DNA from: Entophlyctis helioformis
Lineage: Eukaryota; Chytridiomycota; Chytridiomycetes; Chytridiales; Chytriomycetaceae
DNA: 64,000 bases
Direction: 5' to 3'
NCBI GenBank assembly: GCA_025526915.1
Contig: JAHLKH010000055.1
Span: 1 to 64,000 of the forward strand
In this document: positions 26,543-44,657 of the stretch, piece by piece
How the letters are laid out: each line of letters opens with the position of its first letter
How positions within the stretch are numbered: the stretch's first letter is position 1
The notes under the pieces: model-generated
Told to the model about the DNA's origin: nothing
The model's input: the letters and a program-made list of their open reading frames with translations, nothing else
Databases searched by the model: none
Translations under genes and position numbers: made by a program

Positions 26543-26835
26543 TGAAACAGGTCGAGCTGCACTACTGGTCAGAGATGCACAAAGGGTTCATTCCAATACA
26601 CGTCAATGTCACGTACCTGCACTACTGGTCAGAGATGCACAAAGGGTTGACCAGAAGTGCAGGGCGGCGGCGCTTGCGTTTTATAGCCCATGTAGAGCCC
26701 CAAACACGCGGTCATCTGTGTTGTGTCGCACCAGTAACTATGCCAAATATGGTAACTGAGACGCGACACTGTGTGACGGTGGCGTTGTCTGAGGTATTGC
26801 GCCACCGCTGTGCTAGTCAGACGAGACGCGCAACA
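26543..26835 (-). repeat. 3' LTR of the Ty3/Gypsy element
   Basis: 293 bp, starting TGAAACAGG and ending GCGCAACA on the plus strand. It differs from the other LTR at only a handful of sites. It holds two copies of a 32-bp direct repeat (26557-26588 and 26617-26648) and, read on the minus strand, a TATAAAA box. Confidence 0.92.
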
Positions 26836-30599: not shown

Positions 30600-31491
30600 G
30601 TCAGCAGCCCGAGAACGAGTGCAGCTGCGCAGGTGGATGGTTGTTATGCTGCTTGAAGCGGAACGTTGAGCGACAGCCCTGTCGGTGGCTGCCGACGCCG
30701 CGGCACGTGTAGCACATTCTTGCGGTCATTGGCGCCACTTCTCGCGGCCTGCTGATTGGGGAACGGGTTGGCCGACGATCCTTGAGATGGCACCAGCGCG
30801 GCAGCTGCGGGTGGCTGCAGCTGGTGACAGATCCATGGGCCACGGGCCTGTGTTACTGGCGATGGGCTTGGGCAGCGGGCCGTTGCGCAGGATGTCGTCA
30901 ACAGTGGGGATGAAGTCGCACACTTGGGCATAGTCCATCGCGCGGAATCTCAGCTCGCGGCGCACCTCGGAGGCATACTGCCCATACAAGCCGCGTATGA
31001 TCACCTCGGCCAGCCAGTTGTCGTGCACTTCCGAGTCCAAGCCTGCGGCCATCATCTCAAACCGTGCCACGTACTGAGCGCCAGACTCCTTCTCGCCTTG
31101 CTTTGTGTTAACGAGGGCGTCCTTGACTCGACGGGTCATATCGGGTGGCGTAAACGCGGCATCGAAGGCGGCGAGAAACGTGGCGGGGTGGACGACCTTG
31201 TTGCGGCGCAGGTGGCGAGTCAGCCACTGACCGGCGATCCCGACGAAGGCAGGGTGCAGCAGGGCGGTCAACTCGGCACTCGATGCGGTCTTGTAGAGCC
31301 CGAAGAACTGCTCCAGCAGGCGGCGGAAATCGGTGGCCGCCACAAGCTGCTCCGGCAGACCGGCAAACGTGCCGAGGCTGAACTGGCGCCGCACCTCGCG
31401 ACTTATCGAGCTGTCTGACGGCGCCGCAGCGGTGGGAACGGGTCTGTCTTGCGGGACCGGGGACTCGTGGGCCGTGTGCATTGACGGCGAC
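30600..31491 (-). CDS. Ty3/Gypsy gag, C-terminal part with zinc knuckle
   Basis: Capsid-like helices are evident (VRRQFSLGTFAGLPEQLVAA, LLEQFFGLYKTASSAELTAL, ESGAQYVARFEMMAAGLDSE, DNWLAEVIIRGLYGQYASEV). A zinc-knuckle variant, CYTCRGVGSHRQGC, lies near 30675-30720; its His is one position later than the usual CX2CX4HX4C. The N-terminal part of gag lies beyond the nested element (33827-34240), where the sequence is Pro/Ala-rich and then FDIARVVEDECGNPLATVGS. The nested insertion therefore interrupts gag. Confidence 0.75.
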
Positions 31492-31779
31492 TGTAACGAT
31501 ATCCACGGACGGATCATCCCGTCGTGGTCCCAGGCCCTGACGCCCTGTGTCCCTGTTTCATGGGTCATTGCCTTGCCATATTGCTGTCCAATGGCGCGCC
31601 TCTATTCCATGTGACGCGCCTATATAAGCTGGCACTGGATAGTACTCTGCCAACCCCAGCCGTTGTGCCTCGTACTTCCCAGGTGCCTATCCATCCTTAT
31701 GTCTGCCTATGGCTACTGCTCTTACCAATGAACATGCCTCGTACTTCCCAGACGTATACCGTCCGTACAAGTCCTTATA
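31492..31779 (+). repeat. 5' LTR of the nested element
   Basis: 288 bp. Its TATATAAG box at 31621-31628 could start the element transcript about 180 bp before the internal ATG. It differs from the 3' LTR by a G/A change, a one-base indel near 31525 and a T-run length difference at the end. Confidence 0.88.
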
Positions 31780-31835
31780 CAACGGCTCACCCATCGAACT
31801 CGACGACCGACCGACCGACCGAATTCTGGGCCGCC

Positions 31836-33365
31836 ATGCAAGCCGGCGGCCCAGGCCAGCCGACCCGCACCAGCCCGCAACAGACCGCAACCAACAACCA
31901 TCGCAACCACCTCCAAACGACCACCAGCAGCCTCCAGCACGAGCTACGCACCGCTCGCCTGGAGCTGCACAACATCCAGCTCATTTCCGACGACTGTCTG
32001 CTCGCCATCCAGCTACAGACAGCCTGTGTTGACAAGACTCGTTCCATTGCCGCCAGCATCCTTCGCTCATGCCACAGGCCGCCGACAAAGGAGGAGCACC
32101 ATCGCCTGGCCCCTGCAATGGTTGCTCTGCGAGAGGACCTTGCCAGGCGTGACAGCCTCCAGCTTGAGCAGCAGCAGCTCGAGCAGACGGCAAGCGACCT
32201 GCTTGCATTCATTGACCAGCTCGAAGCCACACTTCGTTGGCGCAAACTCAACCATCGTTTGTGGAACGCCAACGGCAGTAGCAGCAGCAGTAGCAGCCGC
32301 AACACCGACCTCGCCACCAGCTCCATCTGCACCGGCCCCGGCCATGTGCAGCCCCAACCGCTCTGCATGCAGCAGCTGCCCGACCAGCCCGTCCGCAGCC
32401 CCGGCCACTCTGGCCCTGGCAGCACGCCTGTCCTGACGCCGCGGCATCAGCAGCATCGTTCTCCCGTTCCGACCGCCACTGCTCTGGCCTCGCCTCAGCA
32501 GCACCGACCGACCCAGCCGCCTCTGGCACCGGCCAGCCCGGCCAGCAGGGTCGAGCACCCGTCCGTCGCGTACCCGTCCGTCCCGTCCCCGTCTGTCCCG
32601 CTCTGCAGCCCAGTCGCTGTCCCTGCAGGCTCGCCCATCCAGCCGCCTGCAGCGCGCGCCGATTGGCCAACGCGATCTGATTGGCCAACGCGTGCCAATC
32701 GGTCAGCAGCAGCTGATTGGTCGGCACCAACCGATTGGTCAGCCGCATCTGATTGGTCGCCATCAGCCGATCCATCGCCGATGCCAATCGATCTGCCATC
32801 TGCACCAGCAACAACAGCCGTTCTGCCCAGCCTCTCGACTGAGCAGCACTCAGCCGACACCGCTGCACCTGCCCTTGCCAAGCAGTCGCACCGCCTGTCG
32901 ACACACTCGCCTTCGCACCCGTCTCAACTGCCTACAACGCTCCATCTGCCTCATCTGTCTTCTGTACTGTCAACTGAATTGCCGATTGAACCGACTGGAC
33001 TGCGCCAACTGCCGCCAGTACAACCGCCGCCGCTGCCGCCGCCCGTATTGCCTGAACCGACTGAGCTGCATCACCAACAGCCAGAACAACAACCGCTGCC
33101 CGCTTACTTGCCTGATCTGCCCTTGCAGATGCTGCCGACCCAGCCGCATCAGCAATCGCTGCCTGTTCACTGCTCAACTGACATTGGATGCACTCGGCCG
33201 GCTACCGCTGCTCCAACGTCAACGACTGTCACTGCAATTGATCGACTGCCGCCGCCAGATCCAAACATCCTGTCATCGCCTGTCTTGCTACATGGTGCCG
33301 TCACCTGTGCTCAAACTGCGGATCTGCTCTTCATGGACCTGACTTTGTTGGATCGCGTCTTTTGA
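31836..33365 (+). CDS. Single ORF of the nested element: coiled coil plus Pro/Gln-rich region, 509 residues
   Basis: The frame runs uninterrupted from ATG 31836 to 33365. The first 140 residues predict coiled coil (SLQHELRTARLELHNIQLIS, ALREDLARRDSLQLEQQQLE, ASDLLAFIDQLEATLRWRKL). A Ser tract and then a long Pro/Gln/Ser/His-rich region follow. This includes a short imperfect repeat with the core DW(S/P)(A/T) (about 32660-32780). The C-terminus is GAVTCAQTADLLFMDLTLLD. No zinc knuckle, protease or polymerase motif is visible. The role is unknown; position between LTRs suggests a structural (gag-like) or RNA-binding protein, but this is inference. Confidence 0.65.
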   Translation: MQAGGPGQPTRTSPQQTATNNHRNHLQTTTSSLQHELRTARLELHNIQLISDDCLLAIQLQTACVDKTRSIAASILRSCHRPPTKEEHHRLAPAMVALREDLARRDSLQLEQQQLEQTASDLLAFIDQLEATLRWRKLNHRLWNANGSSSSSSSRNTDLATSSICTGPGHVQPQPLCMQQLPDQPVRSPGHSGPGSTPVLTPRHQQHRSPVPTATALASPQQHRPTQPPLAPASPASRVEHPSVAYPSVPSPSVPLCSPVAVPAGSPIQPPAARADWPTRSDWPTRANRSAAADWSAPTDWSAASDWSPSADPSPMPIDLPSAPATTAVLPSLSTEQHSADTAAPALAKQSHRLSTHSPSHPSQLPTTLHLPHLSSVLSTELPIEPTGLRQLPPVQPPPLPPPVLPEPTELHHQQPEQQPLPAYLPDLPLQMLPTQPHQQSLPVHCSTDIGCTRPATAAPTSTTVTAIDRLPPPDPNILSSPVLLHGAVTCAQTADLLFMDLTLLDRVF

Positions 33366-33533
33366 CCTGGTTTACTGGATATGCTCCGTGTCTCTCTATC
33401 ATCGCGAGCAAGTACTACTGCACCACATCGCCGTCACCGTCGCGTATCTGCATCATCTGGATCCGTCTTCCTTGGATCTCTCTCTTGTGCTGATACATTG
33501 CCTTCCGTTCCTTGCAATCTCAGCAAGGGGGGC

Positions 33534-33821
33534 TGTAACGATATCCACGGACAGATCATCCCGTCGGGTCCCAGGCCCTGACGCCCTGTGTCCCTGTTTC
33601 ATGGGTCATTGCCTTGCCATATTGCTGTCCAATGGCGCGCCTCTATTCCATGTGACGCGCCTATATAAGCTGGCACTGGATAGTACTCTGCCAACCCCAG
33701 CCGTTGTGCCTCGTACTTCCCAGGTGCCTATCCATCCTTATGTCTGCCTATGGCTACTGCTCTTACCAATGAACATGCCTCGTACTTCCCAGACGTATAC
33801 CGTCCGTACAAGTCCTTTATA
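33534..33821 (+). repeat. 3' LTR of the nested element
   Basis: 288 bp, with TATATAAG at 33662-33669, directly after the purine tract and directly before the GCGAC duplication. Its last bases are TTTATA, lacking the CA seen after the same point in the 5' copy. Confidence 0.88.
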
Positions 33822-34251
33822 GCGACGGGGACGCATCCAAGAAGCGCCACGGCGACGAGCGACCGCGAGAACCGAGCCGACGGTGGCCAGTGGGTTGCCG
33901 CACTCGTCCTCGACCACGCGCGCGATGTCAAACACGAGCTGGGAGCCGCCCTGAGTGGCAAGCCACCACAGGCGGCCGGAGATGGCGTCGAGCGTGAACC
34001 CCGGCGTGCGGCGACGTCCTCGATGTGCAGGATCGCGGCCGCCAGTTGGTGACCGAGGGGGCTCTCGTCCGTCACCATGGGGATCGCCGCGGCAGGGACA
34101 GGGGCGGCGTTGGAGGCGCTAGCGGCGGCGTTGGACGCGGTGGCGTTGGGATCGGCGCGGCGTCAGCCGCACCATCGGCCGCGTTCGCAGCGGGCGTGTA
34201 GACATGGGGGAACAGCGGAAGGCAGCTGGTAGAGTATACCAGTGCTACCAG

Positions 34252-34544
34252 TGAAACAGGTCGAGCTGCACTACTGGTCAGAGATGCACAAAGGGTTCAT
34301 TCCAATACACGTCAATGTCACGTACCTGCACTACTGGTCAGAGATGCACAAAGGGTTGACCAGAAGTGCAGGGCGGCGGCGCTTGCGTTTTATAGTCCAT
34401 GTAGAGCCCCAAACACGCGGTCGTCTGTGTTGTGTCGCACCAGTAACTATGCCAAATATGGCAACTGAGACGCGACACTGTGTGACGGTGGCGTTGTCTG
34501 AGGTATTGCGCCACCGCTGTGCTAGTCAGACGAGCCGCGCAACA
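34252..34544 (-). repeat. 5' LTR of the Ty3/Gypsy element
   Basis: 293 bp. On the minus strand it contains TATAAAA at 34388-34394, suitably placed to start transcription of gag-pol. It has the same 32-bp internal duplication as the 3' LTR. The primer-binding-like TGGTAGCAC begins at 34250, one base inside. Confidence 0.9.
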
Positions 34545-34770
34545 GTGGCGTCCTGCCTGCATTCAACAAGTACCGTGTCCACACAAACACTGTCGCTGCC
34601 ACCTCACTGATCCACTGGCGATCCAACCGCTGCCTACCGAGCATCTCCATCGAATCCAACCCCAGATGGCCGATGCACTGCCTATCATGCGTTCATTCTT
34701 TCCAGGTTGCACCACCCTGCTGTCACCCTGCTGTCACGCCGGCATCCAAGCGATTCGCCTGGGAGGGCAT

Positions 34771-37700
34771 CTACAGCTCGACTGGCTTGACGGTCGGCCG
34801 TCTGTAGTGCCGCATGTGCGACCCAGTCTCGTGCGGCTTGTACGGCGCATGTGCACCGTATGGTTTGGGAATCGGCAGCTCGCCGTATCCGGTGGCATCT
34901 GGGATGTACGCATTGGGCCGCGGCTCGGCCATGGTCCGCACATTGCCATATGTGAAGAAGTTGTCGTCGCCGCTGCATTGCAGGCAGAGTGTCAGTGGAG
35001 TGGAGTCGAGTGTCAGTAGAGTGTCGTGGAGTGGAGCAGGCACAGGTGGATCGACTGAGCTGCATGCCAACGTGAGCAACGCACATGTCCACAAAGCGGC
35101 CCGTCTCTTCGCGCTGCTTGCGTTCCTTGAGTGCATTCACCTTGGCCTCGCGGCGGATGCGTGCTCGCTCTGACCGCACAAAGTCGCGCTCGATCTGCTC
35201 GGTCGGAATGTCCTCAGTCTCAAGCCGGCGCTTTGCTTCTTCCACAAGTGCCTCCTAATCTCCATGGCTGTCAGTATGGTGCTCGCGTGTAGCATTCCAC
35301 GCAACACGCCTCCACCTTTTCACTCTTCTCTTGATAGAGGCTCATGGCGAGTGCCTGATGCATGGCCAGCTCAGACACCTTGGCCATCATGCACTTTGTG
35401 ACGTGCTTGATGCGCTTTGTCAGATCGTTGAGTCGGCGCGAGACCTGGTACGTCTCGTCTTTACCCTCGAGCGTCTGCGACTTGAGTCTGTCTGTCAGCG
35501 TGCCAATCTCTTCTAGAATGAGATCCTTTTCCAGCAGCTTCTCCTATACTGCACTGTTAGTGACTTTCATCTGTTGCGCAACCATGGAGCCTCGCATACT
35601 GCAGCATGCATACTTCGCGGCCAGCCAGTAGATCCTCGAGACGCTCAATCTTCTTCAGCAGCTCCTTTTGAGATGGATCGACACCGCCAAGGTTGCGGCA
35701 CCGTCTTGGGTCGTCGGGGTTCTCCATCTCTTCTGCAAGGTCGGCAACTTTTTTGCGCAGCTTTTCTCTGCTAGCTTCCAGCTTCTCAATCTCGCCCTCG
35801 TAACCCCACGAGCGGCTCGGTTTGCTTCTGCAGCTCGACTTTGCGCTTGAGCTCGGCAACATAAGCGAGAGCTTGCGGATCTCGTCCTCCTTGTCGACGA
35901 GCGCGGATTCGCCCTTTGCCATGACTTCCTTCTGCACATTGAGACGCTCGTACAGGATGCAGAGCTCGTCGTTGCGGTCAAGAAGATGCACGCCGACCAT
36001 GTTGCGCTCCTTGATACACTGTTCGTATCGGAGTTTGAGCGTCATCATCTCTTCTTCGGCCGAGTTGATGTGCATGTTGAGTGCCTCGATGGCCGCCAGA
36101 TGCTGGTCAATCTGGTCTGTTTACGCGCATTTGTGTTGTTATGCTTCCATGGTTTGGACACCGTACACCGCAATGCCACCTACCTCGCCGGTCTCTGTAC
36201 TGCACCATGAGTTTGTTGGCCTCGTTCTTGAGCGAGTCGCGCAACGCATACGCAGCACTGTTTTCCTGTCGCTTTTTCTGCACTCCGACAAAGGCATCAG
36301 TTGGCCGATGTGCACATCCATGCTTAGAGGAGCCAACATACCGACACTTCACGGTCCTTGTTGTAGATTTCGTGCCGCAGAATTTCAATCTCGTTGGACA
36401 GGATCTTGATCTTCTCCTTCATCTCAGCTGCCCGCTGAGTCGACGATTGGATTTGGTTGAGCTGCAAACAAAACACCAGTCAGCACTGCTGCCATACGAG
36501 CACGCCATCGCAACCAAAACTTGCGTATTTGTTTCGCTCGTTCTTGACCAGCTCGTAGAGAGCACCGAAATCCTTGAGACGGTTGACTGCCTCTGTGCAC
36601 CGCTTGGATGCATCAATGATGCTGATCTCCTTGCCAGCATTGTCGCCCTTGATTGCGCGCACTTTGCTTTGGATGCGAATAACCTCGCGTGCCTATCACG
36701 GGGCAACATTCATCAGCACAAGCACAGACTGCAGTTCGACACTACCACAGCTGCCAAGCAACCGCTCACACGCAAGTCCTTCTCCATCTTTATCTCCTCA
36801 ACCTTGCGAGACAGCTCCTGGCATCGCGAGGCGGCCTCTTCCAGATCGGCTTCCAGCTTCCGATTGGCGCCAATCTGCTCAGTCAGCATCTCGCCTCGGA
36901 CTTTTCCAGCTTCTCTTGCTTGAGAAAGTCGTAGGTCGCAATGTCAATCAGCTTGCGCAGCCGGCCGTTTTCCTTGCGGTAAAACTTCTCGTCGGCCTTG
37001 ATAAACTCGAGTTGGCGACGAAAGTCTCGCTCTGCTTGCGGATGGTGGGTGTCGACATTCTGATATTGTTGACGGTTGTTTCGAGGCGGCGGTGGAGCTT
37101 GAGCTGCGTGTCTTTTTCGCGGATGACGCGAAGGAACAAGTCGTGCTCGCGTTTGATCTGGTGGCGCATGCACAAGCGTGCTGGTCAGTGCGAGTATACT
37201 GCACAGATGCTCCAACACATCAAACTACCTCGAGTATGGTTTTGCGCATCGTGATATCGAGCCGGACACGCTCAGCCTTTTGGAATGCGAGCTGCTCCTT
37301 GGCAAGCTCGTGCTCCTTGAAGATGTCATCCACCTGCCGCTCCATCTCGTGGATGAGACCACGTCGCTGCTCGTAGTCGGCCGCCTGACCCATGCGCAGC
37401 TCCTCCAAGTCGCGCTTCTTCTTGGCAAGGCGGTCCAGCTCTTTGTCGAGCTGCTGCGCCAGGGTCAGCTGCTTGGAGTTTTCAGCGCCGAGCGACGAGA
37501 TGGCGTCACGGAGCACATCGATCTGCTTGAGGATCTTGATGGGGGTCTCGGATGCCTTGGATAGCGAAATGAGATGCTTCTCTTTCTCAGTCTCGAGACG
37601 GTCGCGCTCCTGTGCCACCGACTCGTATGTCGACTGCTTCTCTTCCATGTCCTTTTGGAGATTCTCCACCTGGTGCCGCCGTTGCAAGATGTCCATCTTG

Positions 37701-38509
37701 AGCTCCTTGGTGGCTGCAATCAGCTGCGGCTCGAGCATGTCTGCCTTGTGGCGCCGAATCTCTTCAATGTCATGCACCAGATCCTGCTTCTGCTTTGTGA
37801 ACTCTTCGCTGTCACGCTGCAGCTTGGACTCGCGCTCCAGTGCCAGGTTCACTTCGTTTTGCGCCTGCGTGCATCACATCGTTTGAGCCGACCGCCTAGA
37901 GCCAGTCAATACGCACACTCGGGGAAGCCTTACCCTGAGCAGTTCGCGTTTGAGCTCTCCAATCTCAGCATTGCCAGAGAACTGCTTGGAGATGGCGCGG
38001 TCGCGATCCAACCGCTGCATCGTACATCCTGGATGGCCTGCTTGAGCTTCCGCGCCATGTCTTCATAGTCGTTGAATTGCAACAGGAACTTGTGCAGAGC
38101 CAGAAACCGCATTTTGAACTTGTCGATCCTTTGCATGCAGCAGACTGCTGTGTCAGCGTGCTTCACTGGCCATCAACAGACAAGGCTGAATGCTCACTGC
38201 TGGTCAGACACTTCTTTCCTGCACGCAATCTCGAGAAACTTGAATGCGGGCGATGTCTCGATGTTGAAGAGACCGCTCAGGTAGTACTGGTCTTCCTCCT
38301 GCTCAGCCGCGTTTTCGAGTTTCTGCTGAGCGGACATCTTGGTGATGCTGGCGGCCGCCTGCAGTCTTGCCGCCCTTTAGCGTTGACTGGGACGCCTTGG
38401 CGTCGACGGGATCCTGATCTCCAGCTCCAGCTGCTTTGGATGCCTCTTGGGCAGGATCATCTGCGAGACCAGTGTCAGTATCGGCTGCAAACGACTCATT
38501 CTCGTCCAC
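34771..38509 (-). CDS. CCDC146/MBO2-like flagellar and centriolar coiled-coil protein
   Basis: A long coiled-coil protein in about a dozen exons separated by 50-100 bp introns. Diagnostic segments: [15 protein letters not shown] near the N-terminus (38230-38275), [13 protein letters not shown] (about 36520-36560), [20 protein letters not shown] with [18 protein letters not shown] (35930-36040), [20 protein letters not shown], and the C-terminus [20 protein letters not shown] through [14 protein letters not shown]. The last block matches the CCDC146 C-terminus (proline-rich IPKPYG and a KPVE(I/L) end) almost residue for residue. CCDC146/MBO2 is associated with centrioles and flagellar microtubules and is needed for normal beating. 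The first coding exon with its ATG was not found: the exon ending at 38509 begins right after an acceptor-like CAG. One possible frame break near 35815. Confidence 0.9.
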
Positions 38510-39008
38510 GTCTGCAGATGTTTTGAAACGGAGAGCGCGCTAGCGTTCCGACTTCTACTGTTGCTGCTGATAATGATGATGACGGCCGTCTGGCGCAGGT
38601 GTGGTATCGGGGGGTCTGCATCTGCGGGCGATAAGTGCGCCGGCATCTCTGCATTACGCCAACACCGCCCGGACAGCATGCATCATCGATGGCCGCCCAG
38701 CTGCGGCAAAGGGACGAGATAACAGAGGGAGCATGGCGCCACTCTGTCCACTTGCCATTGTTGAGCAGCTGCTGCGACATGTCGCGAAACAAATCTCAAG
38801 ATGGGTTGCGACGCGTCACGGTAACTCCGACATCCAGATTAATCTGCCATCGGATGTGCACATCACGATTCTTGGCCGCCCTCATTGGCCGTCATCTCGT
38901 CAGACTCCTCATAAAGGGCGGCTCGCTTTGGATCGCTCCCACACTTGCTCGCACGCACCTTATACATACACCTAGACACTCTTCTTGCCCAGCAATACAT
39001 CCCAAGCC
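38510..39008. other. Divergent region between CCDC146 and the Ser-rich gene
   Basis: It should contain the missing first exon of CCDC146 and both promoters. A TATA-like TTATACATA lies near 38959-38967, about 45 bp before the ATG at 39009. I could not place the CCDC146 start. Confidence 0.4.
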
Positions 39009-41037
39009 ATGTCCCTGACACCGACCACCACCTCGCGTCCCGTCAAGCGGATGAGCGCCATCGTTACATCTCCCTCGAGCTCCATTGCAAGCGAGATATC
39101 AGCAGCCATGAGCAACAGCGCTACTGTCGGCACCGGTCTTCGCTCTGGACACTATCGGTCACTCAGCGCCGACGAGTTTACGGGCTATCCCTCACAGCTT
39201 GCCACAACAGCAGCCAAAGCAGTCCATCTCCCAGACGACCACTACACACACTTTCAAGACACCTACGGCCGGTATGCCGATGGCAGCAACGCCGAGAACC
39301 GTGCCAGTGACGACGATGACACAAACGACCGAGGAATGTCTGGGCGAGTTTCGCACGAGCCGTTCATCTCTTCGCACCTTCGTGCCATGCAGCCCATGTC
39401 GCTTCATCAGCACCACCAGATGCATCAGCTGTCGTGGGGCCGACGACTAAAGAACAAGCTTGGCTTTGGCCCGGCAAGGGCGGCAACAGCAAGAGCAAGC
39501 GCCACGGCAAGTTGCCGCACGAGTTGGGTCAGGAACCGTTGCCAACGACACGACACCTACGCGCCACCACCGATGGCATAAGCGATGGCCAGTGGACGAC
39601 CGATCCTGCTCATGATGACAACGATGACGACAGAAGAAGCTCGCCAAAGATCAATGTCATGCTGCCTCCGTCTAGCGCATCTGTCAAGTTCGATTCACAT
39701 AGCAGCAGCAGCAACACCATGCGTCGAGCCACTGTCCACATGTCCACTGCATTAACTGCCGCACCAGCTGCCGATCCACGGTCGTCGCCAACAGACACGG
39801 GTCTCGCTAGCCGCCGCAACACAATCACTGCTATGGCAAGCTCCGACCCCAAGACGAGCCTGCCTGCTGCAAGTGCCAACTCCATCCGCGAAGGCTCAAT
39901 CTCAAGCAGTCGCAAAAAGTCGTTTGAGTGGATGAATCTGTCCAAGTTATTCGCGCTCAAGAAGGGCGGCACTGCAAGCAACTCTTCCATCAGCGTGTCT
40001 GTCACCAACCCACGCCATGAAGCAGCCAAACCGGCTACACCATCCATCATGACGGCATCGCTCATCACGCTTGACACGCCTGCTGACGATATGGCGTCGC
40101 GCAATGGCTCCTCTGACCACGAGCAACGGCGCCAGTCCGTTGACCACCGTCTGTCTGCCAGCCGCCCGTTTCATGTCACAGCCCAGCCGTTGTCAGAGCC
40201 GCACATACCGCCTCGCTCCGACAGCGCCAGACAATCGGTTTCATCTGCACCGTCGCTTCTGGTAGCAGCAACAAGCACGCGCCAAGACACGGGCAACACT
40301 GCATACGCCTTGCCTGCTTCGTTGACTCGTGCAGAGAGTGACCACACTATGTACCAGCGCGACAGTCGCAGCAGCAGTTCCAACCCGTCTTCATCCATCG
40401 CGTCGCCAGTGCCACCGCCGCGTCTCTACACCCATCAACCCACGTTTGCAAGTCGATCGCAGCTAGGCACTCTGCCATCCACCGCGGCAACTGCCATGCA
40501 ACACATGGGCTTTCAGACCGGTCTGCCAAGTTCGCTCGCCTCCATCTCGCCATCAACAACAGCAAGCGACAGATCGCCGCCAGAGACACCAGTGCACGGC
40601 AAACCGCGCCGCAAGATCTCCAACGACTCTCAGGCACTGCAGGCAGTCCGGCGACGACTGCGTGACTTGTACAGCTCCGAAGACGATCTGGCGCGTCTGG
40701 CTGCCCACTCCACCACAAGCGTGTCTCGCAATGTAAGCAAAACATGTACTCGGGCCAACAGACCAGCCTGCAAAGATGGACGCCGCCACTGACATGAATT
40801 GGGCAGACGAGCCATGTGTCGGTATCGATGGACGACCAGTTTGACGCACACCTGGCCATGATTGCGGATGCGCTGTCGTCACTGTCCGTCAGCCGCCAGG
40901 CGTCGTCAACGTCGATTGCGTCTTCAGCGGCTGGCGACACGCCCGCAAGGCGGGCAATGGACAAGCTCGACATGCTCATGGACACGATCCGCAGCGAGAT
41001 GCAGCACCACAATGCGATTGCGGCCGGCTCCTTCTGA
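39009..41037 (+). CDS. Ser/Thr-rich disordered protein, unknown function
   Basis: Two exons: 39009-40732 and 40807-41037, joined in phase 0. The protein is about 650 residues, mostly Ser/Thr/Pro/Ala-rich and disordered. Short ordered-looking blocks are SFEWMNLSKLFALKKGGTAS, KISNDSQALQAVRRRLRDLY with SSEDDLARLAAHS, and a C-terminal helix VSMDDQFDAHLAMIADALSS to MDKLDMLMDTIRSEMQHHN. A single frame change occurs near 39470 (after LKNKLGFGP). Many RxxS and SP sites suggest phosphorylation. No family is recognised. The last helix resembles an oligomerisation or docking segment. Its stop is 77 bp before the MPC2 start. Confidence 0.55.
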
Positions 41038-41114
41038 CTGTCTGTTGCTGTCGTCCTCTCCTGCAGTTGATTAAACGGTTTCCTCCTCCAACACGAGATT
41101 CACTTGCGGCAACA

Positions 41115-41895
41115 ATGGCGTCAGCATCGTCCTCGTGGTTCAGCAAGTTCTTGAACCACCCAGCGGGTGCGTGCGTGCGTGCTTGTGTGCGTGTGTGCTT
41201 GTTGCGCTGTGGAAGGGCAGAGCGACGGTGTGACGGCAGCATGCCTCTGACGACCGACTGGCCGACGCCGACTGACCAACGCTGCGTGGCAACACAGGTC
41301 CCAAGACGATTCACTTCTGGGCACCCACCATGAAATGGGTGTGTAGCCCGTCCTGTCGCCTGCTGCTGCGGGTCCGACGCAGCGTGTGAGCGTTCCATGG
41401 CCGACTGACGCTTGCCGATGGCTGTCTGGGTGTGCAGGGCCTTGTCATTGCTGGTCTCGGTGACCTGCAGCGTCCTGCAGAGAAGCTCAGTCTGATGCAG
41501 ACGAGTGGTGCGTCTGCTTGCTTGTGCCTTGGGCTGCACGCCACTGCATATCTGACAGCCTCAACGGCACACCGATACCCACAGCACTGGCTGCAACGGG
41601 CCTCATCTGGTCCCGCTACTCGCTCGTCATCACCCCCAAGAACTACAACCTGTTCTCAGTCAACATCTTTGTCGGCGCCATCGGCATGTACCAGCTGTTC
41701 AGAATATGGTCGTACGTCTGTGTTGTCATGGCAGCCGATCTCGCCTGATCTCGCCTGATCGCACTGCATCGCACTGGATCGCACTGCATCTCATGCAGAC
41801 TGACACTCTCCGCTGCGTCTGCTGTCGACAGATACAACCAGAGTCTCAAGGCCAGCCCTGTTTCTGCCGCACCGGACACTGTTGCCACAAAGTAA
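41115..41895 (+). CDS. MPC2: Mitochondrial pyruvate carrier 2 (MPC2)
   Basis: MPC2 pairs with MPC1 in the inner mitochondrial membrane to import pyruvate. Five exons fit perfectly: 41115-41166, 41298-41338, 41438-41507, 41585-41711, 41832-41895, giving 117 residues. The hallmarks are all there: FLNHPAGPKTIHFWAPTMKW, GLVIAGLGDLQRPAEKLSLM, ALAATGLIWSRYSLVITPKN and YNLFSVNIFVGAIGMYQLFR. Three membrane helices are predicted. Length is at the short end for fungal MPC2 but complete. Exons are tiny and no exon would be recognised alone by an ORF search, so automated annotation may miss it. Confidence 0.96.
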
Positions 41896-42206
41896 CCTAC
41901 CAGGCATCACACCAATGCTCGCCGAATGAATCTCAATGGCCATGTCCCCATTGTCCTTGTAGCCGAGCAATGCTTGGGATCCGCCACCACCAACAATGTA
42001 CCCAAGGATGTGCATTGTCCTTCTTTCCCGAATCAGTTCTGCCTTCGCATCCGGCGTGGTCCTTATCTCGTTGACTGCTGGCCCGTCCTGCTCCTCATCG
42101 CAGCAACAACGGGCTCTGTAAGACCGTCTTCTCGAGACGCGTTGTGGGTTTCTCTTTGCAACGCATACCTTTCAAGGCCTCGCCTCGCGTGCCAACGTCG
42201 TTTTCC
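41896..42206. other. Intergenic spacer between MPC2 and the GPCR-like gene
   Basis: 311 bp with no gene-like frame, no TATA box and no repeats. It must hold the promoter of the GPCR-like gene. Confidence 0.4.
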
Positions 42207-44657
42207 ATGGCATCACTTCAGCCACGAGTCACCCGCATTGGCCGAATATTAGCTCGAGCAGCAGTGGTCATAATCCCCATTGCGGCTGTCCTGGTATTGT
42301 CATTGGCATCAACACTCGCCGTCACAGCCGTGGCAGCAGGAGCAACCCCGTCAACGCCTGCAACGTCTGCAACGGCAGCAACAACAATAACCCAACACGG
42401 CATGCTGCTGCATCTCCAGGGCCGCTCGCAACAGCCGCAGGAGCTGCGACAGTCGCACCCGAACACGGGCCAGATATACTCTACAGACGAAATGGCATTC
42501 ATCACACAAACGTACACGTCGCCGCCCGTGTCTGTCACCAACACCGTCATGCTCATTAGCGCCTGTGTCAACGGCCTCATCATCATCGCCTATGCGCTCT
42601 CGCGGCGAAGCTATGCGCCCGACTACCTGCTCAACATGAGCGTCATCATCGGCACCTTTCTCATCAGCTTGGGCAAAACCATCTGGGGCTTTGCGCTCTT
42701 TGGCATCTTCCGCAGTCTGTCCGCGTCGCCGTCGTCGGCCTTTCCACAGGCCCTGGTCCATATCGTGTGCCAGCTCGACGGCTTCTTCATCCAGTCGTCG
42801 AGCACGGGCATCCAGGCCGCCATCTGGCTCATGACCCACTACCAGTACCGCGTGCTGATCCTCAAGAGCCATATGGGCCGGTCGGCCATCCTTGCTGCCA
42901 TTGGCGCGTGCTGGGGCTTTGCGATTGCCAATGCGTGTCTCCCGTTTCTCATCAACCTGCTCACGGGCGACCTGTGGCACTCGGGCAACGACGTCATGGA
43001 CATGTACACGTTCCGTCCGTCGGGCCTGTACTGCTTCATCGACTTTTCGTCCGCCAAGCCCGGCACGCGGTGGATGACGGCCGTCAACCTGTTCTTCTAC
43101 ATTGCGATCCCCGCGGGCATGGCGTTTAGCAACTATCTCGTGCTCAAGAAACTGCGCATGATTCGTCGGCGGTTTGATCGGTTCCTGCTGCGCAAGAGCG
43201 GGAGCCGTGTTGCGCCGGGCGGGCGAGGCAGTGCGGCCAGCGCCAGGAACGCCAAGCAGCCAATGGACTTTAACGCGTACGACGCACCGGACGCGGACGA
43301 CGACGGAAACGGGTATGGCGCGGTCGGTGTTGTCAATACAGTGGGCAGCTCGACGATCGGTGGCGGGGCGCCAACGGCGACGGACTTTGCGCCAGAGGAC
43401 GACGACATGGTCATTCGCACCGACATTTCCGAGAGTATCTCGTCCAATACCGACCATGACAGGAGCTTCAACATGGCCCGGTCGGACCGCGATCATGACG
43501 ACAATATCGAAGAGGGATCGATCCGCGACGCTGAACCCATGCCGCCTGGAGGCCCACACTCCTTTGATGGCAACGCTCGGCGCAAGAGTCTGGGTACTGG
43601 CAGCGGGAGTGGAGTTGGCACAAGCAGCACCGGTGCACGATCCGATCGGCCTGCATTGCCCATCATGACGGAGCTTACAGCCATGCAGGACGATGTATCC
43701 TCTTCTGGGTCAGAAAGCGGCAACGTCAGCGGCAATGGCAACAGCAACAACCAGAGCTATCAGGGTCTTGTGACGCTGCCTATGAGACGCATGTCGCTCA
43801 ATGGAGGTCGTGGTAGCCCGTCCAAGCAGATTGTATCAACTGCACTGGTCGCGCCGACTTCGCCGCTGTCGCTTCCCAGCAACTCGAGCACAGCGCCAGA
43901 GCGTGCAGCAGGCGGCCAGACTGCAGATCAGCCGGTCTATTCGTCGACAGCGCGACAGCCTTCAGGCACGCTTCCACAGACACATTCGCGGCGAACGTCC
44001 TTGCTTATCGACTCCAAAGGCATACTTCCATCCGTGCAGCCACAACACGTTGAGGAGTCGCAGTACCGACAGTCACATCAGCCAACACAGGCCAAACCCA
44101 ATCGCATCTCACGAGACCAGCACGCGGTCAAACATACCTCGTCACTCAAGCGCGACATGACCCTCACGCGCATGCATCGCGCGCTCTTCTACCGCATCTT
44201 TGCGCTCTCATCGTTCATGACCGTTGCATGCGGCTTATACAGCACGCAAGTCATTTACGAGATCGCCGCACGCGAGTCGTCGTCGCTCGAGTTTGATGTC
44301 ATTGCAATGATAGTCGTCGTCTTGCAGTACTTTTCCAATCCGTTTATCCTGCTCGCGATCGACCGCCGGTTACGGCAGAGTATCTTTGACCTGTTTTCGA
44401 CCGACGAGGGCCGCGTGATTGAGCGGATCGTATCGATTCACAACGACGTGCGAGCAAGTTTCAGCCGACGGTCGACGATCGCTAGCCATGGTGGCGGCGC
44501 AAGTGCAAGTGCAACTGCAAACGGAGACAGCGGTGCGGAGCCGGTCTCACCATCATCGGGCGATCGGCAGTTGACGCCGAGGACGTATGTGCCACCATCG
44601 CCTACAGTGTCGCACGGCCAGAGCCGTCCCGATTCCATGAAGCCGCGAACACGGTGA
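42207..44657 (+). CDS. GPCR-like seven-transmembrane receptor with long third intracellular loop
   Basis: An uninterrupted frame of 816 residues. A hydrophobic leader (residues about 14-46) may be a signal anchor. Seven helices follow: NTVMLISACVNGLIIIAYAL; MSVIIGTFLISLGKTIWGFA; HIVCQLDGFFIQSSSTGIQA; AILAAIGACWGFAIANACLP; TAVNLFFYIAIPAGMAFSNY; then, after a loop of about 310 low-complexity residues, YRIFALSSFMTVACGLYS and VIAMIVVVLQYFSNPFILLA. Helix 7 ends NPFILLAIDRRLRQSIFDLF, an NPxxY-like end with an amphipathic helix 8, as in rhodopsin-class receptors. A Cys in helix 3 is present. The long third loop and tail (PRTYVPPSPTVS) are rich in Ser/Thr phosphosites. The receptor probably couples to heterotrimeric G proteins; the ligand is unknown. 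Confidence 0.7.
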   Translation: MASLQPRVTRIGRILARAAVVIIPIAAVLVLSLASTLAVTAVAAGATPSTPATSATAATTITQHGMLLHLQGRSQQPQELRQSHPNTGQIYSTDEMAFITQTYTSPPVSVTNTVMLISACVNGLIIIAYALSRRSYAPDYLLNMSVIIGTFLISLGKTIWGFALFGIFRSLSASPSSAFPQALVHIVCQLDGFFIQSSSTGIQAAIWLMTHYQYRVLILKSHMGRSAILAAIGACWGFAIANACLPFLINLLTGDLWHSGNDVMDMYTFRPSGLYCFIDFSSAKPGTRWMTAVNLFFYIAIPAGMAFSNYLVLKKLRMIRRRFDRFLLRKSGSRVAPGGRGSAASARNAKQPMDFNAYDAPDADDDGNGYGAVGVVNTVGSSTIGGGAPTATDFAPEDDDMVIRTDISESISSNTDHDRSFNMARSDRDHDDNIEEGSIRDAEPMPPGGPHSFDGNARRKSLGTGSGSGVGTSSTGARSDRPALPIMTELTAMQDDVSSSGSESGNVSGNGNSNNQSYQGLVTLPMRRMSLNGGRGSPSKQIVSTALVAPTSPLSLPSNSSTAPERAAGGQTADQPVYSSTARQPSGTLPQTHSRRTSLLIDSKGILPSVQPQHVEESQYRQSHQPTQAKPNRISRDQHAVKHTSSLKRDMTLTRMHRALFYRIFALSSFMTVACGLYSTQVIYEIAARESSSLEFDVIAMIVVVLQYFSNPFILLAIDRRLRQSIFDLFSTDEGRVIERIVSIHNDVRASFSRRSTIASHGGGASASATANGDSGAEPVSPSSGDRQLTPRTYVPPSPTVSHGQSRPDSMKPRTR

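Follow-up and report, generated by a model that had tools for sequence, protein, structure and literature searches.

A sequence that passes through RNA and is copied back into DNA normally loses its introns. In foamy viruses and HTLV, a splice donor lies inside R and the acceptor lies outside the LTR; TRIMs are very short elements without an ORF, and the primer of Tf1 is 11 nt long. For Tf1 and Tj1, both from fission yeasts, PMC4600332 describes self-priming, in which the bases after the 5′ LTR complement the start of the RNA that the element itself encodes.

Here, we analyze an element in the window (i.e., the whole 64,000-nucleotide stretch of DNA under study) whose general kind is known and whose ORF is unusual; the surprise is its LTR design, which is common to autonomous relatives and to the Gypsy element that hosts it. 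The best explanation, to which we assign a probability of about 0.7, is that the element descends, as a non-autonomous form, from a self-primed, chromovirus-kind Ty3/gypsy lineage with a spliced-LTR-intron cycle. It appears to have retained the LTRs, the self-priming site, the polypurine tract (PPT), and, in longer copies, the C-terminal tail of pol, with gag, protease, reverse transcriptase (RT), and integrase apparently absent.

Structure, copies, and surroundings of the element

The window segment in question is a real LTR element, with further matches to its interior and its LTR at other places in the genome. Paired LTRs, a 5-bp target-site duplication (TSD), and a PPT were all found (Table 1). 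The preliminary description had reported two near-identical 288-bp LTRs, the duplication GCGAC on both sides, and a PPT, and each of these was recovered at its position; the LTR pair differs by one mismatch and two gap columns in 289 alignment columns, and the LTR terminus is TA rather than CA. The same description called the element recent, non-autonomous, and free of polymerase, protease, or integrase motifs. The analysis supports this, and no Pfam match to gag, RT, protease, or integrase was found in the ORF; because it thus lacks a recognizable RT and integrase of its own, we regard the element as non-autonomous.

Table 1. Positions of features of the element and of the LTRs of its Ty3/gypsy host in the window
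Feature	Position	Strand	Remark
Element	31492–33821 (2330 bp)	+	TGTAACG...TTTATA; both flanks directly GCGAC
TSD GCGAC, left copy	31487–31491		direct flank of element
5′ LTR (TG...TTATA)	31492–31779	+	paired repeat, 288 bp
TATA-box-like TATATAAG	31621–31628	+	37 nt upstream of P; read from sequence, putative promoter role
P = AGCCGTTG, predicted RNA 5′ end and self-primer	31658–31665	+	exact reverse complement of 31780–31787
X = TGCCTCGTACTTCCCAG, predicted remainder of first exon	31666–31682	+	GT comes next
I, unique portion of predicted intron, GTGCCT...AATGAACA	31683–31734	+	AATGAA at 31727–31732
X′, exact copy of X; CAG end = predicted intron 3′ end	31735–31751	+	from repeat scan
U5b, LTR portion downstream of predicted intron	31752–31779	+	from module tabulation
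PBS = CAACGGCT	31780–31787	+	complementary to P
ORF, 509 aa in window copy	31836–33365	+	predicted helical N-terminus, Pro/Gln-rich middle
PPT AAGGGGGGC	33525–33533	+	adjoins 3′ LTR
3′ LTR	33534–33821	+	P 33699–33706, X 33707–33723, I 33724–33775, X′ 33776–33792
TSD GCGAC, right copy	33822–33826		direct flank of element
Host Ty3/gypsy 3′ LTR	26543–26835	-	X 26648–26617, X′ 26588–26557
Host Ty3/gypsy 5′ LTR	34252–34544	-	same kind of module: X 34357–34326, X′ 34297–34266

The preliminary description had also proposed searching the genome for further copies of the LTR and ORF, and this search yielded about 11 insertion loci of the element's own family (family A) and a sister family (family B). 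In the 29.6-Mb genome searched, the A LTR had 21 matches in 11 contigs. Contigs C163 and C142 each carry a copy without a single difference from that of the window over 2330 bp; since they share with it the TSD, the flank, and the difference between 5′ and 3′ LTR, all three are counted as one insertion, and the two copies were dropped as duplicates that would inflate the copy number. The three segments agree base for base from about 31.5 kb to 36 kb, their left flanks differ, and most of the last 500 bp of each of the two contigs maps to window 43.4–43.9 kb. The shared segment is either a segmental duplication or redundant assembly. Window positions 31000–43930 are common to the ends of C163 and C142 base for base (31.5–36 kb tested), and the gypsy pol to the left of the shared segment differs by at most 9% per 500 bp between copies.

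The other A loci comprise C244, C54, C152 and C106 (each with one copy nested in another, the C106 locus being truncated where the contig stops), single LTRs in C30, C111, and C469, and, at the end of its contig, C318. Their TSDs are ACAGC, GGTTG, TCCGT, and GCAAT, with an imperfect one at C469; for the C54 copy, no TSD was found. The LTR pairs are identical in C244, C152 (inner copy), and C54. A elements are nested in older A elements at L012 (C152, 3050–7727) and L013 (C106, 3942–6716). Family B (C1, C4, C25, C63, C109, and C370) has an interior about 80% like that of A and a different LTR; its LTR pairs are identical in C1, C4, and C25 and 97.8% identical in C63, and the four copies with both ends found have the TSDs GAAGG, CGCCC, CTTAC, and TGCTG.

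The window element is nested in a decayed Ty3/gypsy element on the minus strand, which has gag, RNase H, and integrase matches, the last under its cut-off. The LTR of this host starts with TGTTGCG and is followed by no self-complement of at least 6 nt; the sequence after it, CTGGTAGCA, resembles an initiator-tRNA site. Mobilization by the host was rejected on the basis of its differing LTR and PBS, as the preliminary description had held. A fragment of a CFAP58 coiled-coil gene lies at window 35557–36072 (minus strand), which suggests that the organism bears flagella.

Probable self-priming, the LTR repeat module, and a predicted cycle

In seven families, the 8-nt PBS directly after the LTR is the exact reverse complement of P in the same LTR, and the seven P sequences are all different. 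The 8-mers after the 5′ LTR are CAACGGCT (A), CGACAGCT (B), CGACGACT (C109), CAACAGCT (C39), GAGCAGCT (D), GCAAGAAC (E), and ACAACAAC (E″). Shuffled LTRs matched the PBS in 3, 7, 6, 2, and 17 of 400 cases for A, B, C109, C39, and D, respectively, the five families that were shuffled. In the predicted minimum-energy folds, each of the seven leaders forms the P/PBS helix, whether spliced or unspliced, and in the spliced leaders, all eight pairs are folded in six families and six of eight in C39. The position of P also matches in C370, whose 5′ LTR was not found and which hence stands outside the seven verified families. Altogether, priming looks Tf1/sushi-like, with P as the predicted 5′ end of the RNA.

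Directly after P, in all seven verified self-priming families, begins a sequence (X) that recurs within the LTR as X′. A scan for perfect repeats of 14 nt or longer, lying 40–140 nt apart, covered 647,258 bases (counted on both strands, overlapping loci included) and returned 96 distinct pairs; since the scanned DNA was chosen around LTR elements, these numbers give no genome-wide rate. The scan did not require AG/GT, and every pair flagged for an AG/GT right border sits in an LTR (a repeat in C109 was flagged on both strands because the border rule tolerated one or two extra bases). Tabulating the modules, for which GT and AG were required and a small mismatch was allowed, gave 23 different forms, drawn from nine families (A, B, C109, C39, D, E, E″, C370, and host Gypsy), with X and X′ exactly equal in 20 of the 23. 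X ends in AG/GT, X′ ends in AG, and AATGA(A) lies 0–3 nt before X′ or overlaps its first bases. X measures 17–52 nt, I 22–52 nt, and I+X′ 58–81 nt; across the nine families, a longer X goes with a shorter I (r = -0.83, P = 0.006; by rank, -0.69, P = 0.04). In the host Gypsy, X begins about 37 nt downstream of TATAAAA, as read from the sequence. Among three E forms, X and X′ differ by 0–1 within a form, and between forms X differs by 7–10 and X′ by 6–9, so that the two copies change in concert. Decayed LTRs with mismatched X and X′ occur at L009, L017, L055, L061, and the second LTR of L018, and C74 yields no entry in the tabulation because its second repeat has decayed.

We read the stretch from the GT that follows X to the AG of X′ as an LTR intron that would hold the poly(A) signal, so that the LTR has the putative layout U3-P-X-(GT I AATGAA X′ AG)-U5b. 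The predicted intron, GT...AG and 58–81 nt long, is of fungal size (GT and AG were required here, and the borders were first seen without that requirement); its donors vary, being GTRC... but GTCTGT in E and E″. When leaders are spliced in silico, all seven self-priming families have a first ATG that starts a frame no shorter than 230 aa, for an expectation of 0.84–1.60 earlier ATGs per spliced leader; without splicing, each of the seven leaders contains one or more earlier ATGs (in D, an earlier ATG is in frame with the ORF; in A, one in-frame ATG lies within the intron). The host Gypsy copy fails this first-ATG test after in silico splicing, with a frame of 28 aa.

In the cycle that we propose, the RNA would start at P. 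The intron of the 5′ LTR, with its poly(A) signal, would be spliced out, which would join X to U5b and remove the upstream ATGs. The 3′ end would be polyadenylated in or just after X′, ahead of any use of that 3′ splice site, and because polyadenylation near X′ would precede acceptor use, the intron would be kept at this end. P would then fold onto the PBS, be cut off after 8 nt, and prime minus-strand DNA, and the strong-stop DNA, with the complement of X at its end, would jump to X′ at the 3′ end of the RNA. Extension from X′ would copy I, X, P, and U3, rebuilding the intron and giving the new LTR an X′ that matches its X. Such a cycle predicts that X equals X′, that X starts after P, and that AATGAA adjoins X′.

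A competing explanation, which we consider unlikely, is that X and X′ arose merely as a short-range duplication, such as a regulatory site present twice, and stay alike through gene conversion or slippage, with no splicing. Double units bear on both explanations: if run from unspliced RNA, the proposed cycle predicts X-I-X-I-X, which was read in an E-type LTR (L018 3554–3754, C469) and is indicated, from three overlapping matches, at C239:22318–22513, but such units could instead stem from unequal recombination, which is equally expected to give them. A plain duplication does not, however, lead one to expect that families with unrelated X should have in common the AG/GT and AG right borders, the AATGA(A) beside X′, a left border right after P, and a nearly constant length of I+X′. 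In addition, slippage should give intron-less LTRs, and there were none among 21 A matches and 24 B matches (6 partial), nor any X-only LTR among 84 E matches (40 of 136 candidates scored). We hold it to be a somewhat better than even bet that a spliceosomal intron with a poly(A) signal inside and a copy of the first exon at its end is present in the Ty3/gypsy LTRs of this genome, self-primed and apparently tRNA-primed alike.

If the predicted intron is real, it would be kept through the RNA stage, in principle indefinitely, and rebuilt in each cycle by way of the exon copy. This would answer the question of how two identical LTRs behave differently at the two ends of an RNA, as the 5′ poly(A) site would be silenced by splicing. 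The signature P-X-GT...AATGAA-X′-AG-U5b, followed beyond the LTR by P in reverse complement, can be searched for in other genomes and predicts the RNA start, the primer, and the splice sites from DNA alone.

The open reading frame and candidate partners

A single ORF of 509 residues had been described, and this frame is present in the window copy; it is not the full length, since the frame closes early there and runs to 582 aa in the A copies of C244, C54, and C152, where it ends inside the 3′ LTR. In family B, frames of 590 aa (C4) and 603 aa (C63) were found. The frame is broken in C106 (199 aa) and in four of the six B copies (151–224 aa). The coiled coil of the preliminary description is plausible, as residues 1–160 are predicted to form two long helices (14–78 and 85–147; mean pLDDT 75.8 with single-sequence input); beyond residue 160, the ORF is rich in Pro, Gln, and Ser. 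Part of its middle (within alignment columns 200–400) has a dS of 0.04–0.07 vs 0.5–1.5 near the ends, which suggests a mosaic. Window positions of about 32370–32950, in the ORF middle, contain repeated ATTGG motifs and are 92–93% conserved in related copies at C187 and C43, and the N-terminal part of the ORF is about 69% conserved in C43.

It is possible, although we give this less than even weight, that the ORF encodes no functional protein, the interior being a neutral spacer and the frame a relic. The dN/dS values are 0.71 (A vs the C4 copy of B), 0.69 (A vs the C63 copy), and 0.92 (within B), and the A–B differences are spread nearly evenly over the codon positions (115, 104, and 141; P = 0.049), as a relic would have it. 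Strong purifying selection is thus unsupported, and the ORF appears to be under weak constraint. Moreover, the LTR pairs of C1 and C25 are identical despite their broken frames, and the ORF product is therefore not needed in cis. On the other hand, the 582-, 590-, and 603-codon frames each stay open in 0 of 2000 first-order Markov sequences (simulated mean of 8–10 stops), so that openness in the longest-frame copies is above chance, and five copies keep a pol-like tail in frame with the start codon, neither of which is expected of a relic. The preliminary description had drawn a comparison with TR-GAG elements, and a diverged gag, retained as in these, would fit a single ORF after the leader with a predicted helical N-terminus. 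Since the ORF has no Pfam gag domain and its recognizable part is the C-terminal tail of pol, this comparison is unsupported. A tblastn comparison of the A and B ORFs with the autonomous elements examined gave a pol tail (L059, E = 4e-7) and otherwise low-complexity sequence among the matches listed, and the whole-genome search likewise yielded pol tails instead of gags; we regard a TR-GAG-like origin as very improbable.

No relative outside families A and B was found at E = 0.001 with single-sequence and three-sequence alignment queries, for which the roughly 8000 candidates sharing most short words were scored; the C-terminus, however, matches pol tails of autonomous elements. Specifically, residues 526–599 or 537–598 of the B ORF match the pol tails of C107, C6, and C39 (E = 2e-6, 6e-5, and 6e-5), as exemplified by HIASLSCGDQSMKDLSSRGAVT in B vs HIASLFCANRPSPDLLSRGAVT in C39. 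A degraded gag was rejected as the source of the ORF, given the lack of a gag domain and of any relative in this search, and so was capture of a host gene, as all 36 matches of a six-frame genome search were assigned to A, B, their fragments, or pol tails. The ORF thus looks like one joined to a pol tail, not like a gag.

The preliminary description had suggested looking for an autonomous element with matching LTR ends. The PPT–LTR junction of A, AAGGGGGGCTGTAACGA, occurs 49 times in the genome at up to two mismatches, vs 4 times for a reversed control, and 16 of the 49 were assigned to A or B. At least 15 of the other 33 follow a same-strand RT match at a distance of 2.3–2.4 kb (C6, C12, C37, C39, C43, C74 twice, C107, C109, C186, C187, C205, C231, C274, and C370), with 150 of 199 RT candidates scored. 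Autonomous relatives thus share the junction, although none carrying A's own LTR was found. These relatives, like the self-priming site and the LTR repeat module, do not figure in the preliminary description. In C39, an open frame of 1957 aa exceeds the cut-offs for protease, RT, RNase H, and integrase zinc finger, and also has gag, integrase core, Tf2-1-like SH3, and chromo matches that are all under their cut-offs (Chromo, 24.9 bits vs 25.1). Its leader resembles that of B (CAAGTAGCG...GACGCCATGCC). A search of viral contigs for relatives of C39 pol gave no pattern match. The analysis points to a kind of partner: autonomous relatives, the C39 family among them, presumably mobilize the window element in trans.

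At L060 (C101:69250–69850), an exact PPT–LTR junction belongs to neither A nor B, and an upstream frame has a C370-type pol tail. LTR pairs of the E type lie only about 1.64–1.67 kb apart at C430:2856/4530, C356:6429/8070, C100:51035/52674, and C57:57050/58723, which suggests another short non-autonomous set.

Comparison with known systems

What is new here is the X...X′ repeat with AG/GT and AG borders and AATGA(A) beside X′ in nine tabulated families. No description of an LTR intron with a duplicated exon was among the matches listed from openly licensed PMC papers, which is weak evidence of absence.

Compared with the Tf1/sushi group, the primer here is 8 nt, vs 11 nt in Tf1. The likeness to this group lies in the bases after the 5′ LTR, which complement the predicted start of the RNA made from the element, and the X-I-X′ module goes unmentioned in the excerpted text of PMC4600332. 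The autonomous relatives in this genome add Tf2-1-like SH3 and chromo matches, both under cut-off, to the likeness. With TRIM, LARD, and TR-GAG elements, the window element shares LTRs, PBS, PPT, TSD, the lack of a polymerase, and presumed mobilization in trans. It differs from TRIM and LARD in that it combines a length of 2330 bp with a long frame of 509–582 aa, and from TR-GAG in that its ORF has a pol tail and no gag domain. Finally, as in foamy viruses and HTLV, a splice signal in the LTR would bear on the bypassing of the 5′ poly(A) signal; unlike in those viruses, the predicted donor, poly(A)-like signal, and acceptor all lie inside the LTR, and the repeated exon would restore the intron.
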